NCBI GenBank assembly: GCA_030065155.1
Contig: JASJDI010000038.1
Span: forward strand, 1-34,391
Direction: 5' to 3'
Source: Xenococcaceae cyanobacterium MO_188.B29
GTDB lineage: Bacteria > Cyanobacteriota > Cyanobacteriia > Cyanobacteriales > Xenococcaceae
DNA length: 34,391 nt
In this document: piece after piece, positions 108-33,415 of the stretch
Layout of the letters: each line of letters opens with the position of its first letter
How positions within the stretch are numbered: position 1 is the first letter of the stretch
Translations under genes and position numbers: made by a program
The notes under the pieces: generated by a model
What the model was told of the DNA's origin: nothing
Databases searched by the model: none
The model's input: only the letters and a program-made list of their open reading frames with translations

Positions 108-2057
108 TTATTGAGAAGGTTCAGATTGCCAGGGTAAGAATTTGTTATCGGGATTGAGTAAAAGTTCTTGAAATGGTAAATCTACCTGTGCTATTTGTTC
201 TCTAGTAGGTGGTGCGTAATGCTGGAATGTAGTAGTGCTACTTTTATGGTCTGCATATAATTGTGCAGCTTCCATTCCATATTTAGTACGAACCTCTTGT
301 AAGCGACTAGGACGAGTAATACTACCAATAAAATGTGGTTTTTGTCCGTTAGCATCTAAAATATTTTCTTTTTCTATCAGCATCCGAATGATGCGAACCA
401 TTGGATTAATAGCAACATCAGTTTTTGGAGGGTGTGGTAGAGGTTTTATATTTGGAAAATCAGGATAAAAAGTAACCTTAATATTCCGAAAATGACAAAA
501 CAAATAAGAATAATCTTCACCGAAAACTTTTCTAATCCACTGCTGTTGTTCTTCTATTACTTTTCTAATCTTTCTACTTGCCAGTATTTTATGCCATCGC
601 TTTACTTTCTGTTGTAAAAACTTGATATACCACTTGCCATTTTCTTCAACTAAGCAATCAAAAGATAACTGACATACATCTCCTGGTCTGGCAGCAATAT
701 AAGCTTGAACTAAATAATGACGAGCAATAGGTTTAGGTATTTTATCTAAATGCTGTCTAATAGATTGACGAGTTATTTCATCTAACCAATCAGCATCATT
801 TTTACTAACTTTTAAGAAATCACGACTACGAATTAGGGAAGGAGTTTCTAAATCTAGCCAATCAAAAAAATCTCTTATACAGGCTAGTTTTCCGTTAATA
901 GTTATACTTTGATTATTTTGATAACTATCCAAAAATTGAATTATTGTATTTCTATTAATACTATTCTGGTTTTTAATATCTAAATCAGTAATTATTTTAC
1001 CAAGCTGCCTTAAAGCAGTAATTATTGCTCTTACCCTAGAATCTGAAGAAAATACCTTCGATTTAAGTAAATAATATAAATATTTTTTTACTTCCTGTTG
1101 ATACCAATAAGGATTTACTTCTTGAAAATTTAGTGTTTTTTGATAGGGGTTATCATAAAAATGTTCTAACTCCCAAATATCTTTGTCAAAAGAGAATGGT
1201 TGCAATTTATATTTATATTCTGTTTGACCTCTCACCCAACTTCCACCATGTACTGAATTAATATTAAAAATAATTTGGCAGAAGTAACATCTACAATTAC
1301 TATTTTTATTTTCTATCTTATATACCCATCCTTTTTGTCCATCGTGTCCAATGTCAGTACACAGAGGATTAGGGCATTCGATATTAGGAAGATATCTAGA
1401 TATATGAACTGGAACGTGACAAGTTAGATATGTGTAAACATCACAATAATTACAAGCTAAAGCTAAATTCCCAATTGAATTAGGTCTATAAAAATATTTA
1501 GTCAATTGACCTTTATTACAAACTGGACAATTATATTCTCCTTTATATTCTTTATGCCAATCTATTTTTAGTATTCCATTTAAGGTTTGATGCTGAGAAA
1601 TAGGAGAATACTTTAATCCCACTCCAGGTATTTTACAAGTTAAAAAAGTGTTTTGTTGACATGAATCACATCCAAGTGCAAGCTTGCAGGCAGCTTTTTC
1701 TCTATAAAATAATTTTTTAAGTATTCCTGTTTTACACTTAGGGCAATAATATTCATTGTTATATTCTTCTTTCCAATTAATTTTGAGTATTTTGTTTGAA
1801 GTCTGATGTTGGAAAATGGGTAAGTGTTTTTTTTGTAAACCAGAAATTCTTTGCGTCAAACAAGTATCTTTTTTGCAAGAATTACAGTTAAGACTTAGTT
1901 TACAAATTGTTTTCTCGCGCCGATGGAAACCTGTAATTTTTCCTACTTTACAATATGGACAGCAAAATTCACCATTGTATTCTTGTTGCCAATTTACTTC
2001 TAATTTACCATGTAAAATAGGATGAATTGAAATCGGTGGATATTTACGATTACTCAT
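108..2057 (-). CDS. Zinc-ribbon-array tyrosine recombinase (third gene of trio)
   Basis: This 649-aa protein has an unusual N-terminus: three related ~70-aa repeats (about residues 12-80, 84-150, 155-220), each with a CPxC pair followed ~20 residues later by a CxxC pair (C33/C36-C58/C61, C105/C108-C130/C133, C177/C180-C202/C205). A fourth, divergent Cys cluster lies at 228-260 (C228, C233, C255, C257, C260). This looks like an array of zinc ribbons for DNA or partner binding. The C-terminal ~220 residues fit a tyrosine recombinase: Arg457 in AARPGD, a Lys near 484-489, Arg585 in TRPSR, His604 in ADHKS and nucleophile candidate Tyr614 in FQHY. The first His of the HxxR box seems replaced. The ATG overlaps the end of the preceding gene by 8 bp. 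Fold assignment is inferred from motifs; the zinc-ribbon role is a guess. Confidence 0.75.
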   Translation of the reverse strand: MSNRKYPPISIHPILHGKLEVNWQQEYNGEFCCPYCKVGKITGFHRREKTICKLSLNCNSCKKDTCLTQRISGLQKKHLPIFQHQTSNKILKINWKEEYNNEYYCPKCKTGILKKLFYREKAACKLALGCDSCQQNTFLTCKIPGVGLKYSPISQHQTLNGILKIDWHKEYKGEYNCPVCNKGQLTKYFYRPNSIGNLALACNYCDVYTYLTCHVPVHISRYLPNIECPNPLCTDIGHDGQKGWVYKIENKNSNCRCYFCQIIFNINSVHGGSWVRGQTEYKYKLQPFSFDKDIWELEHFYDNPYQKTLNFQEVNPYWYQQEVKKYLYYLLKSKVFSSDSRVRAIITALRQLGKIITDLDIKNQNSINRNTIIQFLDSYQNNQSITINGKLACIRDFFDWLDLETPSLIRSRDFLKVSKNDADWLDEITRQSIRQHLDKIPKPIARHYLVQAYIAARPGDVCQLSFDCLVEENGKWYIKFLQQKVKRWHKILASRKIRKVIEEQQQWIRKVFGEDYSYLFCHFRNIKVTFYPDFPNIKPLPHPPKTDVAINPMVRIIRMLIEKENILDANGQKPHFIGSITRPSRLQEVRTKYGMEAAQLYADHKSSTTTFQHYAPPTREQIAQVDLPFQELLLNPDNKFLPWQSEPSQ

Positions 2058-3504
2058 GATTTTCTCCCTTCAAATTTTCTAGTTTTTTTAATCCTTGTAA
2101 TCTGGTTTTCAATAACCCTAATAAGCGATTAATTTCCGTAACTCTTCTCTCTTGTCCTGCTGTTTGTGCTTTTTCTAAATCTTGCTGTAAACGTTGAATA
2201 TCGCTTTCTAGTTTTGGTTTATCTTCTAATGTCACTCGATGATGGTCGCAACTCAGACAAGCGTAGCGATACTGACAATCTCCTAATATTGTGGGTCGAT
2301 GACATTCGCCCAATGGGGTACTAACTTTAAGTAGTTCAGCTAATCTTTCATATCTGCGCTTTCTTGGTTTGAAACCAGTTACACGACCGTACATATCGAC
2401 ATAGCCTTTAGTATCGGCTTCTTTCTCTAATCTTTCTAAAGAACGCTTGCGATAGTGAGGCAGCATATCTAACGAACCATGTCCCAAAACGGCAGCAATA
2501 TATTCATCTTTTGCTTCGCAGTAAGCCATTACACTAGCTTTAGTACGCCGAAATTGATGGCTTTTTAGATGAAATCTATTGCCGTATTTATCCTTTAAAT
2601 CTGCTTTTTCACTAAAGTCACGTAACCAAAGATGAATAACCGCATTAGAGAGTGATTGGGGCAAATAAACTGGTTCTATATCAAATCTTTCTCCTTGCGA
2701 AGCACCATCTAGATTTGCGGTAGAAGCTTTACAAAACAGCTTGTCAAAGTCAGAATTAGAACCCAATTGTTCATCTAAAAACTTTTGCTGCTCTCTGACC
2801 AATTCAGCCACAGACGAATGAATCTGGTAAAATCGCCAATGTTTGCGCTTTTGTACCCATCTCAGTAAAAACCATTGTTCCCCCTCTTTTTTAAGGCATT
2901 GACGGGGCATTCTGAGCATTTCCCCGATACGACATCCTAAGACAAGCTGTAGCCTAAATAGTCGTTCTAATGGCGGTGGAAATCGGTCAAAATTTTCATA
3001 AATCTGATGTAATATCTCCTCTGGAATCGTCTCAATTTGAGGTGCTTTCTTTTTGTATTTACGAGGTGTATAAGGTAGTCTTAGCCATTGTTCTTCAGCC
3101 CATAGTCGAGAAACGTAAGCTATTGTTGCTTGCCTGTTGTTTTTACTTCCAGTAGCAACGAATTTTTGTAACAGGGAATCAGTTATTAATTTTGGCTGAT
3201 TATAGCCTTCTGTCACTAGAAACTTATCAAACTGTTTTAAGTAATTAACTCTCTTGCTAACTGAGCTTAAGCTATCTTTTTCCCTAGTACTAGCTAAAGC
3301 TGTTAACTTAGCTAATAACTTGAGCCAAGGCAAGGAAAAATCTTCAAAGTAGATATTTCGAGTTCCCTTTATTCTGGATTCTTCTTCGGTATAACCCAAT
3401 TCTTCAACTGACCAAACATCCCGGTCTAATAAAGGATTATTAATCCATTCTCGTCCTAATTCTGACTGCCCAATTCTTTCCTGTAACGCTTCAATGGGTA
3501 ACAT
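2050..3504 (-). CDS. TnpB-like tyrosine recombinase (second gene of trio)
   Basis: A 484-aa site-specific recombinase of the phage-integrase fold. An N-terminal core-binding region (about 60-150) precedes the catalytic domain with Arg192 (LGCRIGE), Lys219/221 (QKRKH), the box H316-QFR319, His342 (LGHGS) and nucleophile Tyr351 (PHYRK). After the catalytic domain comes a short Cys cluster (C401, C410, C416, C419) and a predicted coiled coil (about 430-475), a layout that resembles TnpB of Tn554-type transposons. The ATG lies 1 bp after the stop of the TnpA-like gene and has a purine-rich Shine-Dalgarno (AGAGGAAGAAG) inside the end of that gene. All catalytic residues are present, so it is probably active. 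It likely works as one partner in a multi-recombinase complex. Confidence 0.85.
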   Translation of the reverse strand: MLPIEALQERIGQSELGREWINNPLLDRDVWSVEELGYTEEESRIKGTRNIYFEDFSLPWLKLLAKLTALASTREKDSLSSVSKRVNYLKQFDKFLVTEGYNQPKLITDSLLQKFVATGSKNNRQATIAYVSRLWAEEQWLRLPYTPRKYKKKAPQIETIPEEILHQIYENFDRFPPPLERLFRLQLVLGCRIGEMLRMPRQCLKKEGEQWFLLRWVQKRKHWRFYQIHSSVAELVREQQKFLDEQLGSNSDFDKLFCKASTANLDGASQGERFDIEPVYLPQSLSNAVIHLWLRDFSEKADLKDKYGNRFHLKSHQFRRTKASVMAYCEAKDEYIAAVLGHGSLDMLPHYRKRSLERLEKEADTKGYVDMYGRVTGFKPRKRRYERLAELLKVSTPLGECHRPTILGDCQYRYACLSCDHHRVTLEDKPKLESDIQRLQQDLEKAQTAGQERRVTEINRLLGLLKTRLQGLKKLENLKGENHE

Positions 3505-3505
3505 T

Positions 3506-4618
3506 CTATTCTTCTTCCTCTCTTGCTAAATAAGCATCTAAACTCATCTCATCCAGTACGTGAGAATAGATATCTTTTGTTGTGGCGATGGATTTATGAC
3601 CTAGTAATTGCTGCACATATTCGTCCATATAACCCGCTTGCAGCATACGAGTGGCAAATGTGTGTCTAAACAAGTGAGGATGAGCTTTGATACCAGTTCT
3701 ATCTCTTAACTGGTAAAACAAGTCATTTAATCGCGCACTGGTCATTGGTTTACCTGTATATTTACCATCCAAATTGACAAACAACATTCCATGTCCCTGT
3801 TGTTCTGCTTCGGATGGATATTCTTCTAATAGGTAAGCTTGAAATGTCTCCTGTATCTCTTCGCGGTTATGTAAAATAGGAATTTCTCGCTCTGTACCTT
3901 TAGCTGTAGCACCATTAGGATTGTCATCCCGTCGAACAATTCTAATTCTTCCTTTGACATCAAAATCTTGTACGTCAACTAAATGTAGCCCCAAGAGTTC
4001 TCCCCTTCTAACACCTGTTTCTCGTAACAGCATCACTATCAATCTGTCACGATAGGTGTAACAAGCATTAGCTAGTTGAACTACTTGTTCGTCCATCAGA
4101 CAACCAGGAAAAACTTTTGGTTCTTTGACTTTAATTCGCTTCCGTCTTTCGGGACTGCTTTTGACAATACCTCTTAAGAACCCACCCCGTTTACCCCAAC
4201 CGTGAGCTAGTTTAGTAAATTTCTTTTCATTAATCCTACCTTCTACAGCGTGGAATTCATACATCCCCTGAATAGCTGTAACTGCCTGATTAACGGTGCG
4301 TGGACTGCGTTTAGATACTACTTCTCTAACCTCTTCTGAGATAACTTCTACCTCTCCACCCAGAAGATACCAGTTAACAAAATCAGCTAACTCATTTAAA
4401 CCAACATCTTGCCAGTTAAGAGATTTGTATTCTAACCAATGCCAGAAATCTAAGAGCCGACAAGCATAGGTCATAACTGTATTAGCAGCTAATTGTCTTT
4501 TGCGACAGTAGTTTAAGTAGCGTTGTATCGGTTCTACTGGCAAACAAGTTTCTGTATCGAATACGCAACTAAATCTTTCCTCGGTTTGAGGGTCAATTGC
4601 TTTTTCTATCGTAATCAC
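3506..4618 (-). CDS. TnpA-like tyrosine recombinase (first gene of trio)
   Basis: A 370-aa tyrosine recombinase with the full catalytic set: Arg204 (TGVRRGE), Lys240 (TAKGTERE), the box H315-LFR318, His341 (LLGHKS) and Tyr351 (IYSHV). The N-terminal ~150 residues form the SAM-like core-binding domain. Length matches TnpA of Tn554 (~360 aa). The start is a GTG at 4618; an in-frame stop lies ~10 codons upstream and the next ATG is 48 codons inside, so GTG is the best choice although no strong Shine-Dalgarno is visible. It is the first gene of the trio, and its promoter must lie in the palindrome-rich region just upstream. Confidence 0.87.
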
Positions 4619-18765: not shown

Positions 18766-19077
18766 TTAATTGTTTTTATCTGTTGGCATAAAAAGGACTG
18801 AACCAACAACAAACATAACACTAGCAGGAAGGTGAAGAAAGACGTGAATTGAAATGCCTTCAGTAAGTTCGATTAATCCATCGAAGAAAAATATTAATGA
18901 GCCAATCAGAAATAACCAACTAATTAGGAATTCGCGATCTCTTAGTGCCTCGCTTTTAGCGCGATCGCTATTTTCTTCTATAGTTGTGATAGCAGTTATT
19001 TCTGGATGAATGACCGTAACAAATTTGCTTTTTTGCTGGTGAGTTTTATTAGTGATATGCTTCTTTTCTGGTAACAT
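18766..19077 (-). CDS. YrhK-like small membrane protein
   Basis: A 103-aa protein with a charged N-terminal half (1-48) and two hydrophobic segments (about 50-66, FLISWLFLIGSLIFFFDGL, and 78-96, FLHLPASVMFVVGSVLFM). This pattern resembles the YrhK domain, a family of small membrane proteins of unknown function. A strong Shine-Dalgarno AGGAGTAAAA lies just before ATG 19077. It diverges from the VOC gene 54 bp away. Confidence 0.6.
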   Translation of the reverse strand: MLPEKKHITNKTHQQKSKFVTVIHPEITAITTIEENSDRAKSEALRDREFLISWLFLIGSLIFFFDGLIELTEGISIHVFLHLPASVMFVVGSVLFMPTDKNN

Positions 19078-19131: not shown

Positions 19132-19581
19132 ATGAACTGGAATAAGTTAGTACCAGAACTTACTGTTTCTGACTTTGCTCTAAGTCTTGAGTTTTATACC
19201 AAGCTTTTGGGCTTTAAAGTTTTGTTTGCCAGAGAAAATCCTCAGTTTGTCTATCTGGAACTTGAGAGCGTACAATTCATGCTCGAAGAGTTCAGAGAGG
19301 ATGGTTGGAATGTGGGCGTGCTTGAGAAGCCTTACGGCAGAGGCATTAACTTTCAAATTGAGTTAGATGACATTCAACCTGTTTACAACAGACTTACCCG
19401 CGATCTCGCGAAGCGAGACAGCGAAGCTGATCGAGTTAGATTGTTCAAAGAAATAAAGGATAATTGGTACAACACAGGTAAGGTACTTTTAGGTCAACGA
19501 GAGTTCTTGGTACAAGACCCAGATGGCTATCTTCTGCGCTTTAGTCAGTTTCTTGGTGAGCGTACCGTATCGACTGAATAG
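19132..19581 (+). CDS. VOC/bleomycin-resistance-like protein with in-frame repeat insertion
   Basis: A 149-aa glyoxalase-fold protein of the bleomycin-binding (Ble) type: LVPELTVSDFALSLEFYTKLLGF at the start, FQIELDDIQPVYNRL in the middle, and GQREFLVQDPDGYLLRFSQ at the end. Relatives have about six residues between the NRL helix and the LF that follows; here there are fifteen, and the extra part (R90-R101) is encoded by a ~34-bp double-hairpin repeat at 19400-19433. The extra residues are charged (RDLAKRDSEADR) and lie in a surface loop, so folding may be unaffected. No Shine-Dalgarno is obvious. It ends 2 bp before the convergent azoreductase stop. Confidence 0.85.
   Translation: MNWNKLVPELTVSDFALSLEFYTKLLGFKVLFARENPQFVYLELESVQFMLEEFREDGWNVGVLEKPYGRGINFQIELDDIQPVYNRLTRDLAKRDSEADRVRLFKEIKDNWYNTGKVLLGQREFLVQDPDGYLLRFSQFLGERTVSTE
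19400..19433 (+). repeat. Double-hairpin dispersed repeat, copy 1 (inside VOC gene)
   Basis: The unit is GCGATC, hairpin TCTCGC-gaa-GCGAGA, hairpin CAGC-gaa-GCTG, then ATCG. The reverse complement of 32924-32958 matches it in 32 of 34 bases; the two differences lie in the first hairpin loop. It is flanked by HIP1-like GCGATC/GATCG half sites. Confidence 0.85.
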
Positions 19582-32789: not shown

Positions 32790-32884
32790 ACTGTGTTGTT
32801 AATTTAAAACTGCAAGAGAGGTTAGATCGATTCGAGCGGAGGAGGTTTGGGCAACTGCCATAAAGGAGGTGGAAGAGATGAAAA

Positions 32885-33415
32885 GTGGCTTTTTTTAGTC
32901 GTGGAATCCCTTGTTTAATTGGTGCGATCAGCTTCGCTGTCTCGCTAGGCGAGATCGCAGCCTTAACCATAGTAGAATCTTGGTTACTATCTAATCTAGT
33001 ATGGGCTAATCCTACACCAGAAAATACTGTTGCCCAAAAAATTGAAAACCTTAAGCAATCAGGTCAACATTGGATTGAAATCGATCTTTCTGACCAACAT
33101 CTATTTGCTTGGGAAGGCACAAATCAAACATTTACAGCAGTTATTTCTACCGGTAAAGCAACAACGCCAACTAATCCAGGGATTTATACCATTCAAAGAA
33201 AATATCCTCAAGATAGAATGCGTGGTGCAGACTACGATATTGCCGATGTTCCCAACGTGCTTTATTTCGATCGCGGTTATGCCCTTCACGGTGCATACTG
33301 GCACAATAATTTTGGAACACCAGTTAGTCATGGTTGCATTAATCTTCCTGTGAATAATGCTCAATGGTTATTTGAGTGGACAAAAATCGGCACACCTGTA
33401 ATTATTCATGAATAG
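32885..33415 (+). CDS. L,D-transpeptidase (YkuD domain), secreted
   Basis: A 176-aa cell-wall enzyme that makes 3-3 peptidoglycan crosslinks or attaches lipoproteins. Catalytic motif: [20 protein letters not shown] with Cys151 and His149. Substrate groove segments [16 protein letters not shown] and [10 protein letters not shown] are typical of YkuD. The N-terminal ~40 residues form a hydrophobic signal peptide ending near VWANP. Start is uncertain: the in-frame start is GTG 32885, but the strong Shine-Dalgarno AAAGGAGG is 15 bp away from it and perfectly spaced (8 bp) for ATG 32878, which is out of frame by one base in a T7 tract; with T6 the two frames would join (MKSGFFSRG). Part of the signal peptide (A14-A25) is encoded by the dispersed double-hairpin repeat. 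Confidence 0.88.
32924..32958 (-). repeat. Double-hairpin dispersed repeat, copy 2 (inside L,D-transpeptidase)
   Basis: Reverse complement of the unit at 19400-19433 with two differences in the first hairpin loop (CTA instead of GAA between TCTCGC and GCGAGA). Flanked by GCGATC and GATCGC. Here it encodes [12 protein letters not shown] in the signal peptide. Confidence 0.85.

Follow-up and report, generated by a model that had tools for sequence, protein, structure and literature searches.

A small double-hairpin repeat, probably of the SDR5 type, inserted in frame at HIP1 sites in genes of a Xenococcaceae cyanobacterium

The stretch of DNA analysed here (34,391 nucleotides, hereafter the window) contains two copies of a double-hairpin unit in two unrelated protein-coding genes. 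The unit is very probably a copy of an SDR5-type small dispersed repeat targeted to HIP1 (GCGATCGC), an octamer common in cyanobacteria; the usual length of the repeat allows it to survive in proteins. The assignment was made by comparing target, fold and length with the description of SDR5. The insert splits the octamer and leaves GCGAT and ATCGC at its ends. The two copies in the window are a small sample of dozens. The following features were located in the window.

19132–19581 (+): VOC-family protein (glyoxalase/bleomycin-resistance superfamily), 149 aa; PF00903, E 8.5e-8
19400–19434 (+): repeat unit in the VOC gene, GCGATCTCGCGAAGCGAGACAGCGAAGCTGATCGA, 35 nt including the HIP1 octamer
19400–19404 (+): HIP1 half GCGAT of the VOC unit
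19405–19417 (+): hairpin A of the VOC unit, 5 bp, loop GAA
19418 (+): spacer of the VOC unit
19419–19429 (+): hairpin B of the VOC unit, 4 bp, loop GAA
19430–19434 (+): HIP1 half ATCGA of the VOC unit
32885–33415 (+): L,D-transpeptidase (YkuD domain), 176 aa, true start uncertain; PF03734, E 1.5e-26, and orthologues
32924–32958 (−): repeat unit in the L,D-transpeptidase gene, GCGATCTCGCCTAGCGAGACAGCGAAGCTGATCGC, in opposite orientation to the gene; in plus-strand order GCGAT, 4-bp hairpin, 1 nt, 5-bp hairpin, ATCGC
18934–18968 (−): repeat-like 35-nt stretch in a 103-aa ORF (SDRAKSEALRDRE; ORF 18766–19077, −), a weak match to the family model (39 bits)

The first-pass annotation had described a 34-base unit shared by two sites of the window. 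Positions 19400–19433 (+) and 32925–32958 (−) are indeed identical in 32 of 34 bases, and both mismatches lie in the loop of the longer (first) hairpin, GAA versus CTA, which agrees with the statement that substitutions fall in a hairpin loop while the stems are kept. When up to three mismatches to the 34-mer were allowed, two matches were obtained in the window and none in 100 dinucleotide-preserving shuffles. Neither ORF is interrupted by the unit, and the copies differ in reading frame and in strand; the claim of one double-hairpin repeat placed in frame in two unrelated proteins, in opposite orientations, thus holds. Since eight of the 35 bases represent the pre-existing HIP1 octamer, the net insert is 27 nt and not 35, so that each unit of the window brings a gain of nine codons. 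The insert for which twelve residues had been quoted is real, its net contribution being nine residues and the remainder deriving from HIP1.

Comparison with orthologues, as had been proposed in order to define the exact ends, placed the insertion inside HIP1. At 12 sites in eleven genes the relatives lack exactly nine codons (27 nt), and at two further sites, in a methyltransferase and a PTS-like protein, they lack eight (24 nt). In eight of these 14 empty sites HIP1 is intact in a relative. The clearest case is CoaBC, where the gene of a congener (G007) reads CAGATTTAGGCGATCGCGAAGTACCC with an intact HIP1, and the gene of the studied genome has the same flanks plus 27 nt. The insert in MoaA is common to the studied genome and G007 with different loops (GAA and TAC), while MoaA of other genera is 27 nt shorter and HIP1 is intact at this spot in G009 and G001. 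The L,D-transpeptidase copy had been assigned to the signal-peptide region, and the gene is exactly 27 nt shorter there in G007 and G006, with HIP1 intact in G006 and G019. Intact octamers were also found for an AddB-like nuclease (G007), GlpD (G010, G009, G014, G006 and G026), ParA (G026) and a glycosyltransferase 61 carrying two inserts (G023 for the first, G009 and G023 for the second). A CHAT protein, a 255-aa protein and an ATP-synthase-B-like gene have exactly nine codons fewer in relatives. For the VOC protein, the loop said to be absent from relatives corresponds to exactly nine residues that the 79 aligned relatives, all non-cyanobacterial, lack. The reverse situation was encountered at two loci, filled in G007 and empty in the studied genome. 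These junctions fit a cut between nucleotides 3 and 4 of HIP1; because ATC/GATC is common to both junctions, the exact cut is ambiguous and a short target duplication is possible. Precise insertion between nucleotides 3 and 4 of HIP1 is reported for SDR5 (PMC4390886).

Some sites appear to have been used more than once. Close to the N-terminus of CoaBC, a single HIP1 is occupied by differing 24-nt inserts in G026, G008, G024 and G021, and is empty in G025, which belongs to the same genus as G026. In the ATP-synthase-B-like gene an independent 35-nt unit is present at the same place in G014. As judged from these alignments, CoaBC and one other gene hold independent same-site inserts in other genera. 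Separately, the repeat was seen in glpD-type genes (DAO and DAO_C domains) of three genomes, each time at a different position (L311, L365 and L288).

The studied genome (6.24 Mb in 383 contigs, the window being contig 60; about 1.3 Mb of it was read in stretches) was searched for the unit, as the first-pass annotation had suggested. Six copies lie within three mismatches, the unit core gives 27 matches, and a covariance model of the family gives about 84 matches, with 58 in the congeneric G007. Among 40 relatives, most of the compared genomes being drafts, 34 have some covariance-model matches, many within the same family and few in other families. No exact match to the repeat was found in viral contigs. 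Copies occur at dozens of loci, in both orientations, within and between genes, and identical 33- to 35-nt units are found at unrelated loci of one genome. The common plan consists of GCGAT, a hairpin of 3–6 bp with a 3-nt loop, one nucleotide (mostly C or G), a second hairpin of 3–6 bp, and ATCGC; the typical unit is a 5+4 bp double mini-hairpin with 3-nt loops and a 1-nt spacer. Within a single genome the plan is kept, but the stem sequences are very diverse. A detector that follows this plan and ignores stem sequence recovered 131 units in 1.9 Mb of fetched sequence versus two in reversed sequence, a number that is not a census since the loci were picked from model matches seeded by copies of the studied genome. 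One poor detector match (L159) was dropped. The net insert measures 23–27 nt, mostly 25 or 27, the usual gain in the genus under study being 27 nt, and HIP1 occurs in the studied genome once per 1.7 kb, a density that together with gene content marks the host as a cyanobacterium. Nested or tandem units, several with common HIP1 halves, were observed at L184:3310–3380, L217:14220–14280 and L167:1770–1830.

In the 5+4 class (14 copies), pairing holds in 94% of cells, and 13 cells are altered on both sides, a level reached by none of 500 shuffles. The covariation score was 0.165, versus 0.040 for shuffles and at most 0.05 for slid versions. GNA and its complement TNC make up 162 of the 228 three-base loops, and C-G is the closing pair in 222 of the 228; the stem CAGC was found with both loop orientations (GAA 14 times, TTC 22 times). 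DNA mini-hairpins of exceptional stability are formed by GNA loops closed by G-C, for example in d(GCGAAGC) (PMC4686876). The repeat resembles the d(GCGNAGC) hairpins of that study in its C-G-closed loops, one strand of which bears GNA or the complementary triplet; the latter are a biophysical motif, unlike the repeat, and no mobile element. By analogy, these loops point to a single-stranded DNA state of the repeat.

The effect of length on survival in genes was evaluated by replacing the insert with HIP1 in silico, considering ORFs of at least 100 aa with the site at least 20 aa from the end. Units with a net length divisible by three were located inside ORFs in 38 out of 76 cases, versus ten out of 43 for other lengths (p=0.006), and several of the non-divisible units inside ORFs visibly break the ORF or sit in one repeated sequence. 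The contrast is moderate, and with a margin of 35 aa it is not significant (p=0.14). This test replaced an earlier ORF-based one, which looked stronger but contained some circularity, since any frameshift terminates the ORF close to the insert. With the 20-aa margin, 890 of 1307 HIP1 octamers lie inside ORFs compared with 36 of 76 divisible units; the units are depleted (p=4e-4), as would be expected if many insertions were harmful. In ORFs of at least 150 aa, the D-R, A-I and R-S frames account for 24, 12 and 1 of the divisible units and for 354, 486 and 95 of the HIP1 octamers, respectively (chi-square p ~3e-4, stop codons allowed for). Pfam domains back most of the host ORFs scanned.

An AlphaFold2 model of the VOC protein shows an intact fold with a mean pLDDT of 88. 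The insert occupies the end of helix 82–94 and the loop preceding strand 104–114, residues 91–100 being less certain (mean pLDDT 68). In the L,D-transpeptidase the insert lengthens the signal-peptide region. It is inferred that the host proteins still work with the insert. The VOC gene is missing from all 26 further genomes of the family that were searched, and its nearest relatives are in Vibrio, Xenorhabdus and others; it was probably acquired laterally before entry of the repeat. Around the start of the L,D-transpeptidase gene (32878–32905), a strong Shine-Dalgarno sequence and an ATG (GTG in one case) are followed by ATGAAAA...TTTTTT in nearly all orthologues, and the open frame is +1 to that start in every orthologue (L035, L036, L038–L043, L045 and L046). 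This pattern would fit a conserved +1 frameshift, or slippage of the transcript, where the signal peptide begins. Near the same place in the signal peptide, the orthologue of G003 (L039) carries another hairpin-like stretch (GCAAGCGAGGCGCTTCGCTTG), possibly another independent insertion. At the left contig end, three consecutive ORFs with phage-integrase domains (108–4618, −) resemble a tyrosine-recombinase trio.

Several other explanations were considered besides an SDR5-type repeat. That the two stretches are ordinary protein sequence, similar by descent or convergence and free of any insertion, has practically no probability left and is refuted for both reported copies: these and ten more sites correspond to exactly nine codons missing in relatives, often with HIP1 intact, and the window copies differ in the frame and strand in which they are read. 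The first-pass annotation had named distant orthologues with the same residues and without the repeat DNA as contrary evidence; the relatives of both genes lack the residues. The ordinary-protein explanation does hold for the stretch at 18934–18968, where the proteins of G001 and G020 are equally long without the repeat. Its designation as an in-frame insertion was consequently withdrawn, and it may be a decayed old copy or a chance resemblance.

A local origin, in which hairpin pairs are made at HIP1 by replication slippage or snap-back synthesis without copying from other loci, could accommodate the great variety of stems in one genome under a constant plan, as well as the two loop orientations on the same stem. 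The variety of the stems also speaks against the SDR5-type reading, in that a single copied master sequence is not obvious. A local origin is nevertheless improbable, as identical 33- to 35-nt units stand at unrelated loci of one genome, the window copies share 32 of their 34 bases, and the bases of the units are not derivable from their flanks. Still less probable is a functional RNA or mRNA-stability element with its fold under selection. The stems covary, and the RNA fold of the unit is somewhat better than that of shuffles (z −1.7 to −2.6), but covariation could also stem from the mode of copying, units are found in unrelated genes and between genes, and for most host genes the orthologues lack them. 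With units mixed in orientation relative to the gene (25 to 15, p=0.15), a function at the mRNA level was set aside for want of orientation bias. Of the proposed conservation of RNA or DNA structure, the part concerning stems therefore stands, as they covary throughout the family, and selection on an RNA fold is unneeded given the mixed orientation and the DNA mini-hairpin loops.

SDR5 elements are reportedly 21–27 nt long and form a double-hairpin fold with compensatory changes. The repeat has the SDR5-like traits of HIP1 insertion, a double hairpin with compensatory changes and a net length of 23–27 nt. SDR5 (Elhai et al. 2008, Genome Res 18:1484, cited in PMC4390886) is likewise a very small cyanobacterial repeat reported to lie precisely within HIP1. 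It differs in host lineage, and in the present case the stems are highly diverse, 27 nt is the usual gain and numerous copies stand in frame in conserved genes. Palindromic repeats placed in frame in many unrelated protein genes are known as Rickettsia palindromic elements (PMC10969869); these are about 150 bp long with a peptide ORF of their own, whereas the cyanobacterial repeat is 27 nt (about one fifth), HIP1-targeted and read in more than one frame. REP/REPIN sequences with their RAYT transposases (PMC3116915, PMC3733652) are also short dispersed hairpins, but the GTAG/CGTC tag at the hairpin foot is missing here, the ends are GCGAT/ATCGC, the target is HIP1 and many copies lie in genes. 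At 35 nt including its target, the repeat also falls outside MITEs (70–300 bp with terminal inverted repeats of 15–30 bp).

An SDR5-type repeat accounts for target, fold, dispersal, turnover between species and recurrent insertion. As suggested by the differences between species, it would spread by copying into HIP1 sites, and the predominance of GNA/TNC loops makes a single-stranded DNA step plausible. Selection would purge from genes any copy that introduces a frameshift or a stop codon. The 27-nt class would be tolerated, mostly in the frame giving a hydrophilic D-x-A-x-R-x-x-E-A-D-R-like peptide, and this usual net length together with the scarcity of stop codons would let copies persist in genes; persistence would not depend on any advantage for the host. 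Y1 transposases occur commonly in these genomes, and within the family the number of transposases and the repeat copy number are correlated (rho 0.49, p=0.013), a relationship confounded by kinship and assembly quality, some genomes being incomplete; a Y1 transposase as the mover is a lead only. More speculatively, and rather doubtfully, the lineage of the element itself may have come to favour a largely stop-free unit of 27 nt because most of its HIP1 targets are in coding DNA, and may thus be adapted to nine-residue read-through and act as a recurrent source of new loops in conserved enzymes.

Two findings go beyond the first-pass annotation: HIP1 as the target, and how widely and regularly the repeat enters proteins in frame. 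The many clean pairs of filled and empty sites, for one of the smallest proposed mobile elements, make its target, length rule and movement testable. In a single step, conserved enzymes (MoaA, CoaBC, ParA and GlpD) acquire nine residues, in some cases more than once at one codon. The abundance of HIP1, a long-standing puzzle, would thereby be tied to a mobile element, and one of the smallest candidate mobile DNA elements would also be one that alters proteins.
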